From Vicinamibacteria bacterium (GTDB lineage Bacteria > Acidobacteriota > Vicinamibacteria > Fen-336): a DNA stretch of 64,000 nucleotides. A program made the translations under genes and the position numbers. The notes below the pieces were generated by a model that searched no databases, had not been told where the DNA came from, and was given only the letters and a program-made list of their open reading frames with translations. Location: positions 1 to 64,000 of the forward strand of contig DATMML010000137.1 in the NCBI GenBank assembly GCA_035570235.1, in the 5' to 3' direction. Shown here piece by piece: positions 16,524-17,051 of the stretch. The first letter of the stretch is position 1, and each line of letters opens with the position of its first letter.

Positions 16524-16762
16524 AGCCGCCCGGCAACGCCTGTGTGGCCTCCTGGGGGCGGTCTCTTGAACAGTCCATCGGCCCACGCCGTGCGCACCGA
16601 CGTTGGCCGTGCTGGGGAGGCGGCCGGGCTTGCTTCCTGGCCAAGCGCCCGCTCGCGCACATGGTCTCGTGCGATGGCACGCCGGAGGACTGGTACCCCA
16701 AGCCCGTCCTGCGGGCCGCAATCGGCATAGGGGCGCCGGGTTACTCCGGCGGCCCCTGCCCC

Positions 16763-16794
16763 ACCACCCGGCGAGCGGGTCCGCACCGGGCGGT
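16763..16794 (-). ncRNA. Group II intron domain V
   Basis: A 32-nt hairpin on the minus strand: ACCGCCCGGTGCG, loop GACC, then CGC, a two-base bulge (TC) and GCCGGGTGGT. All lower-stem positions pair (two G-T wobbles). The asymmetric two-base bulge and the CGC catalytic triad in the 5' strand are the defining marks of domain V, the CGC form being that of class IIC. Confidence 0.82.
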
Positions 16795-16808
16795 TCGTGA
16801 AGTTGAGG

Positions 16809-16901
16809 TCATGCGCGGAGCCTGGGTAGGCCCAACACGTCGAAATGCGACGTGGTCAGCACGTTGTGAAGGCCCATGCTCGCGTTCTTCCACCATCGGC
16901 G
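16809..16901 (-). pseudogene. C-terminal remnant of an intron-encoded maturase
   Basis: About 30 codons from RRWWKNASMG to LGLPRLRA and a stop, ending 14 nt before domain V, where the reading frame of group II maturases normally ends. The reverse transcriptase motifs are absent. Assignment rests on position and on general resemblance to maturase tails. Confidence 0.55.
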
Positions 16902-17022
16902 CGTGTTGGCCGCCCCGGGTCGGTCGCCCTTCCGCAGTTGCGGTTCGCTTCGTTTGCGATGGCCTGCTTGCGGGAGGACTCGCACCTCCAAGGTGATGCC
17001 CATGCTGGGCGCACCAAGTGAA

Positions 17023-17051
17023 ACGGCCCCGGGGACAACCCCCGGGGCCGT
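17023..17051 (-). terminator. Terminator-like hairpin after the third receptor gene
   Basis: Perfect 12-bp stem (ACGGCCCCGGGG / CCCCGGGGCCGT) with a 5-nt loop, 24 nt beyond the receptor stop on the minus strand. Any T-tract is short (TTCACTTG), after which the intron relic begins. Confidence 0.6.

Follow-up and report, generated by a model that had tools for sequence, protein, structure and literature searches.

Bacterial group II introns of class C insert behind Rho-independent terminators (PMC3522654, PMC8919778, PMC4424553). The majority of bacterial group II intron copies are truncated or inactivated, and in some introns the domain V triad is CGC rather than AGC (reviewed in PMC4424553). 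The window, i.e., the whole 64-kb stretch of DNA analysed here, contains a 294-nt element (17014..16721, minus strand) in which the two ends of a group IIC intron stand in the correct order. An earlier note, made from the letters alone, had read this element as a group IIC intron relic, and that reading is supported by the homologies of its ends, the structure of domains V and VI (DV-DVI), a maturase tail, the terminator target and two empty sites. Very probably, a group IIC intron inserted 3' of the terminator and subsequently suffered internal loss by a single deletion, leaving an immobile relic. This relic is real, well delimited and neatly preserved; among genomic fossils, it is of an ordinary type.

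Ends, maturase tail and internal deletion

Inspection of the nucleotide matches shows that those of several relatives start exactly at 17014, the first position of GTGCGCCC. The 5' segment is up to 85% identical to intact introns (E 1.9e-23), the best match being to positions 1-97 of a Halomonas intron (L018), and the 3' part (~16813-16721, the last ~97 nt) shows 82-83% identity to intact introns (E 3.4e-20). Intact introns 1832-1841 nt long align collinearly with both ends on one strand, with their remaining matches within the window falling at noise level. Further, a blastn search of plasmids with the relic recovered 189 records, a large number of which bear an ltrA group II intron annotation, with matches in two separate places, one running from 17014 and the other ending at or near 16721; a phage collection searched with the relic gave no match. 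The 5' consensus, maturase tail, domain V, domain VI and CCGAT-like end named in the earlier note were thus all located on the minus strand, where it had placed them, in order and within the 294 nt (Table 1).

Table 1. Features of the intron relic and of its insertion site, in order along the minus strand.
Feature	Coordinates	Strand	Basis and remarks
Terminator hairpin of the upstream TonB-receptor-like gene, 12-13 bp stem	17023..17051	-	RNAfold; conserved in two intron-less related genomes
Intron 5' end, GTGCGCCC..., with the first ~97 nt of domain I	16918..17014	-	homology to intact introns
Deletion junction CGGG, 4 nt	16914..16917	-	switch of homology
Maturase C-terminal tail, AANTRRWWKNASMGLHNVLTTSHFDVLGLPRLRA	16809..16913	-	34 in-frame codons + TGA
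Domain V	16763..16794	-	9-bp helix, CGC triad (central G-U), two-base bulge CG, GACC loop
Domain VI stem	16730..16756	-	DV-DVI model match
Intron 3' end CCGAT, within CCTATGCCGAT	16721..16725	-	same ending in most relatives, T often next

The homology to domain I ends before the deletion junction, and homology to the maturase C-terminal codons for 'AANSRRWW' begins after it, which indicates that ~1.5 kb is missing relative to intact introns of 1.83-1.84 kb. This agrees with the earlier claim that most of the ribozyme and the reverse transcriptase (RT) had been deleted. The 34 codons are all that the relic retains of the intron-encoded protein (IEP), and match the extreme C-terminus of the protein of intact relatives with 52-59% identity over 26-33 aa (best E 1.3e-12), the four best of the seven comparisons giving 54-59% over at most 33 aa. 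As for domains I-IV, with EBS1/EBS3, the ~97 nt of domain I is all that remains, and the element is hence filed as a remnant and not as a working intron. Since no relative more than 90% identical to the relic was found, the deletion is not mappable to the base and one deletion is inseparable from several; the junction would fit a short microhomology.

The insertion, its boundaries and the internal loss are established by sequence comparison. On the proposed course of events, an intron of about 1.8 kb would have retro-inserted immediately behind the intrinsic terminator of the TonB-dependent-receptor-like gene, the usual insertion place of IIC introns, and an internal deletion would later have removed the bulk of domain I, the whole of domains II-IV and the RT/maturase except for its last 34 codons. 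That this was a single deletion, and that it followed the insertion, is what we infer.

The intact relatives encode proteins with RVT_1 and GIIM, with no endonuclease domain reported, and carry Rfam D1-D4 matches and the CGC triad. The best matches of their IEP among solved proteins are the GsI-IIC RT (432 bits), another group II RT (318) and LtrA (130). A full-length relative sharing both ends, as sought by the earlier note, was found in other genomes in the form of these intact introns, but not in the relic's own genome. There, neither a second copy of the relic nor RVT_1 and GIIM were found; a weak DV-DVI model match in the same genome (G000:C77:1026-1086, 23.9 bits, E 0.009) may be due to chance. 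Because EBS1, the catalytic D1-D4 scaffold and the RT are missing, and no RT/maturase was found elsewhere in the genome, the relic is predicted to be immobile, with retrohoming not expected, and splicing by it would be very unlikely. It testifies to an earlier invasion, by a group IIC intron, of a genome in which intron reverse transcriptases are no longer found; its significance hardly goes beyond annotation.

Domains V and VI

Domain V displays the two-base bulge and the CGC triad, which is typical of IIC introns, with one T-T mismatch in the upper stem at the pair adjoining the bulge. The earlier note was accordingly right about the triad and the bulge, but not in describing the domain as perfectly paired. 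At the mismatched pair, 17 of the 18 relatives have T-A; the intron in G384 also has a T at this position, and hence the mismatch may have been inherited rather than arisen by decay. In domain VI, the likely branch-point A is predicted, by analogy, at 16728, 8 nt from the intron 3' end.

A DV-DVI alignment and covariance model were built from 18 relatives, with the relic copy excluded. In the alignment, 94.6% of the cells are paired and 54 are compensatory, a result attained by 0 of 500 shuffles and dropping sharply when the partners are slid. Applied to the 64 kb, the model matches 16796..16721 at 80.1 bits (E 2.2e-20), the next best place scoring 14.3 bits. Thus, a covariance model of the relic's own subfamily matches domain V where the earlier note had predicted, whereas the predicted Rfam match failed to appear: Rfam returned no intron match in the window, either at the gathering cut-off or at E <= 10, and the relic does not exceed the 40 bits of RF00029 (Intron_gpII). 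Some relatives themselves score below this cut-off (one whose ltrA gene is annotated reaches 35.6 bits, and another, in which the RT reading frame is full-length, 29.5), so the silence of Rfam is not evidence against an intron. Here, a clear member of a terminator-targeting IIC subfamily escapes the general Rfam domain V model.

The insertion site and its empty counterparts

The 5' edge of the intron lies 8 nt beyond the hairpin, for which RNAfold gives 12 bp, reached by 0 of 200 shuffles; this bears out what the earlier note had stated. Insertion behind an intrinsic terminator, as in IIC introns, is seen at other sites as well: at 15 of the 19 intron sites examined, including that of the relic, the upstream stem is reached by at most 4 of 200 shuffles, with the stems at L013, L020, L059 and L109 being weak or unclear.

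From their translations, we take the flanking genes to be the 3' end of a TonB-dependent-receptor-like gene and a sulfatase/TPR-like gene. The pair is conserved in two related genera, with 48% and 60% identity in one (G002) and 46% and 57% in the other (G005). In each of them, the orthologous gap contains a strong terminator hairpin but no intron, and the next gene begins within about 30-40 nt of the hairpin. The presence of terminator and gene at orthologous sites lacking the intron points to an insertion in the lineage of the present genome. A further ~180 nt precede the sulfatase/TPR gene in the window (~16530-16709) and are absent from both of these sites; this stretch has no Pfam match and no clear relative. 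On account of this extra sequence in the 3' flank, the 3' side of the site does not form a clean empty/filled pair.

A second relic of the same family was observed in one of the two genera (L005/L063, G005:C99:11767-11858), downstream of another gene. It consists of an intron 5' fragment directly behind a long hairpin; no intron 3' end was seen in its vicinity.

Shortened copies, rival explanations and known introns

Similar internally deleted group IIC copies occur elsewhere, each different, with differing deletion endpoints. Those with both ends, which were sought by design so that their frequency is not comparable with that of one-ended fragments, include copies of 223 nt (L017), ~225 nt (L020, Pseudomonas GM50) and 304 nt (L057, in G287), and longer ones of 411 nt (L109), 420 nt (L096), 476 nt (L056) and 657 nt (L058), the 411-476 nt versions coming from G431 and G407. 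The 223-nt copy (L017:3501-3723, Sulfuricystis plasmid pSTJ1) is an unannotated IIC intron behind a terminator, and its junction resembles a CAA microhomology. An apparent 185-nt mini-intron in Polaromonas (H1) was rejected, being actually the junction of two tandem introns: on plasmid 2 (L010:1759-5500), two IIC introns with ltrA genes stand in direct tandem, the second beginning directly after the CCGAT of the first. Additionally, G410 (five places) and G334 (two) contain several copies that share one DV-DVI score and stop about 40-55 bases upstream of domain V, apparently where a contig ends, which suggests that the assembly is interrupted by multi-copy introns.

Such copies, usually with a terminator hairpin (L017, L020, L057, G431, G407), are what would be expected had the element been a non-autonomous miniature intron that inserted at its present 294 nt and was spread in trans by the protein of another intron. 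This is nevertheless very improbable, as the relic is single in its own genome and lacks EBS1 and the scaffold, the short copies do not share their endpoints, and L017 fully matches only itself among plasmids. Further, a pattern scan of 84,980 genomes, which spanned a size range of 61 nt and whose exact anchors miss divergent copies such as L057, found one other genome with a similar internally deleted copy. As no multi-copy miniature was seen among the shortened copies, we favour independent decay over a family of mobile miniatures. The broader proposition that IIC introns repeatedly yield miniatures of 220-480 nt (two ends plus domains V-VI) via reverse-transcription deletions, some being moved in trans like MITEs, appears decidedly improbable.

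Co-option of the relic, e.g., as an extended terminator or as a 5' leader RNA of the sulfatase gene that follows, is scarcely credible: pairing persists in domain VI and most of domain V, the maturase tail has kept its reading frame and the relic lies directly between terminator and gene, but the two orthologous sites do without it, there is no evidence of conservation, and a divergence of 15-18% from relatives does not prove selection. The absence of an Rfam match might be held to favour a chance resemblance in a GC-rich intergenic region, an explanation of negligible probability that is refuted by the two separate, collinear matches to intact introns on one strand (E ~1e-20) and by a DV-DVI model match far above background; the pattern is expected 0 times in shuffles.

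Decay of an inserted intron hence remains the preferred reading. With group IIC introns, e.g., that of the GsI-IIC RT, the relic shares the terminator target, the CGC triad, the GTGYG 5' end, domains V-VI and a maturase tail that appears class C-like, its intact relatives showing no endonuclease domain; it differs from group IIC introns in having lost domains II-IV and the RT, along with most of domain I and almost the entire maturase. The ORF-less group II introns (L012, L013, L019; about 600-650 nt) resemble it in having both ends but no RT and in lying mostly behind terminators; however, they have lost mainly the ORF and keep much of D1-D4, whereas the relic has also lost most of the ribozyme. 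Like the fragmented bacterial group II introns described previously (PMC3522654; PMC4496777; PMC4424553), it is an inactive remnant, but while fragmentation in the introns of PMC4496777 removes the 3' terminus, the relic keeps both ends and has lost the middle.
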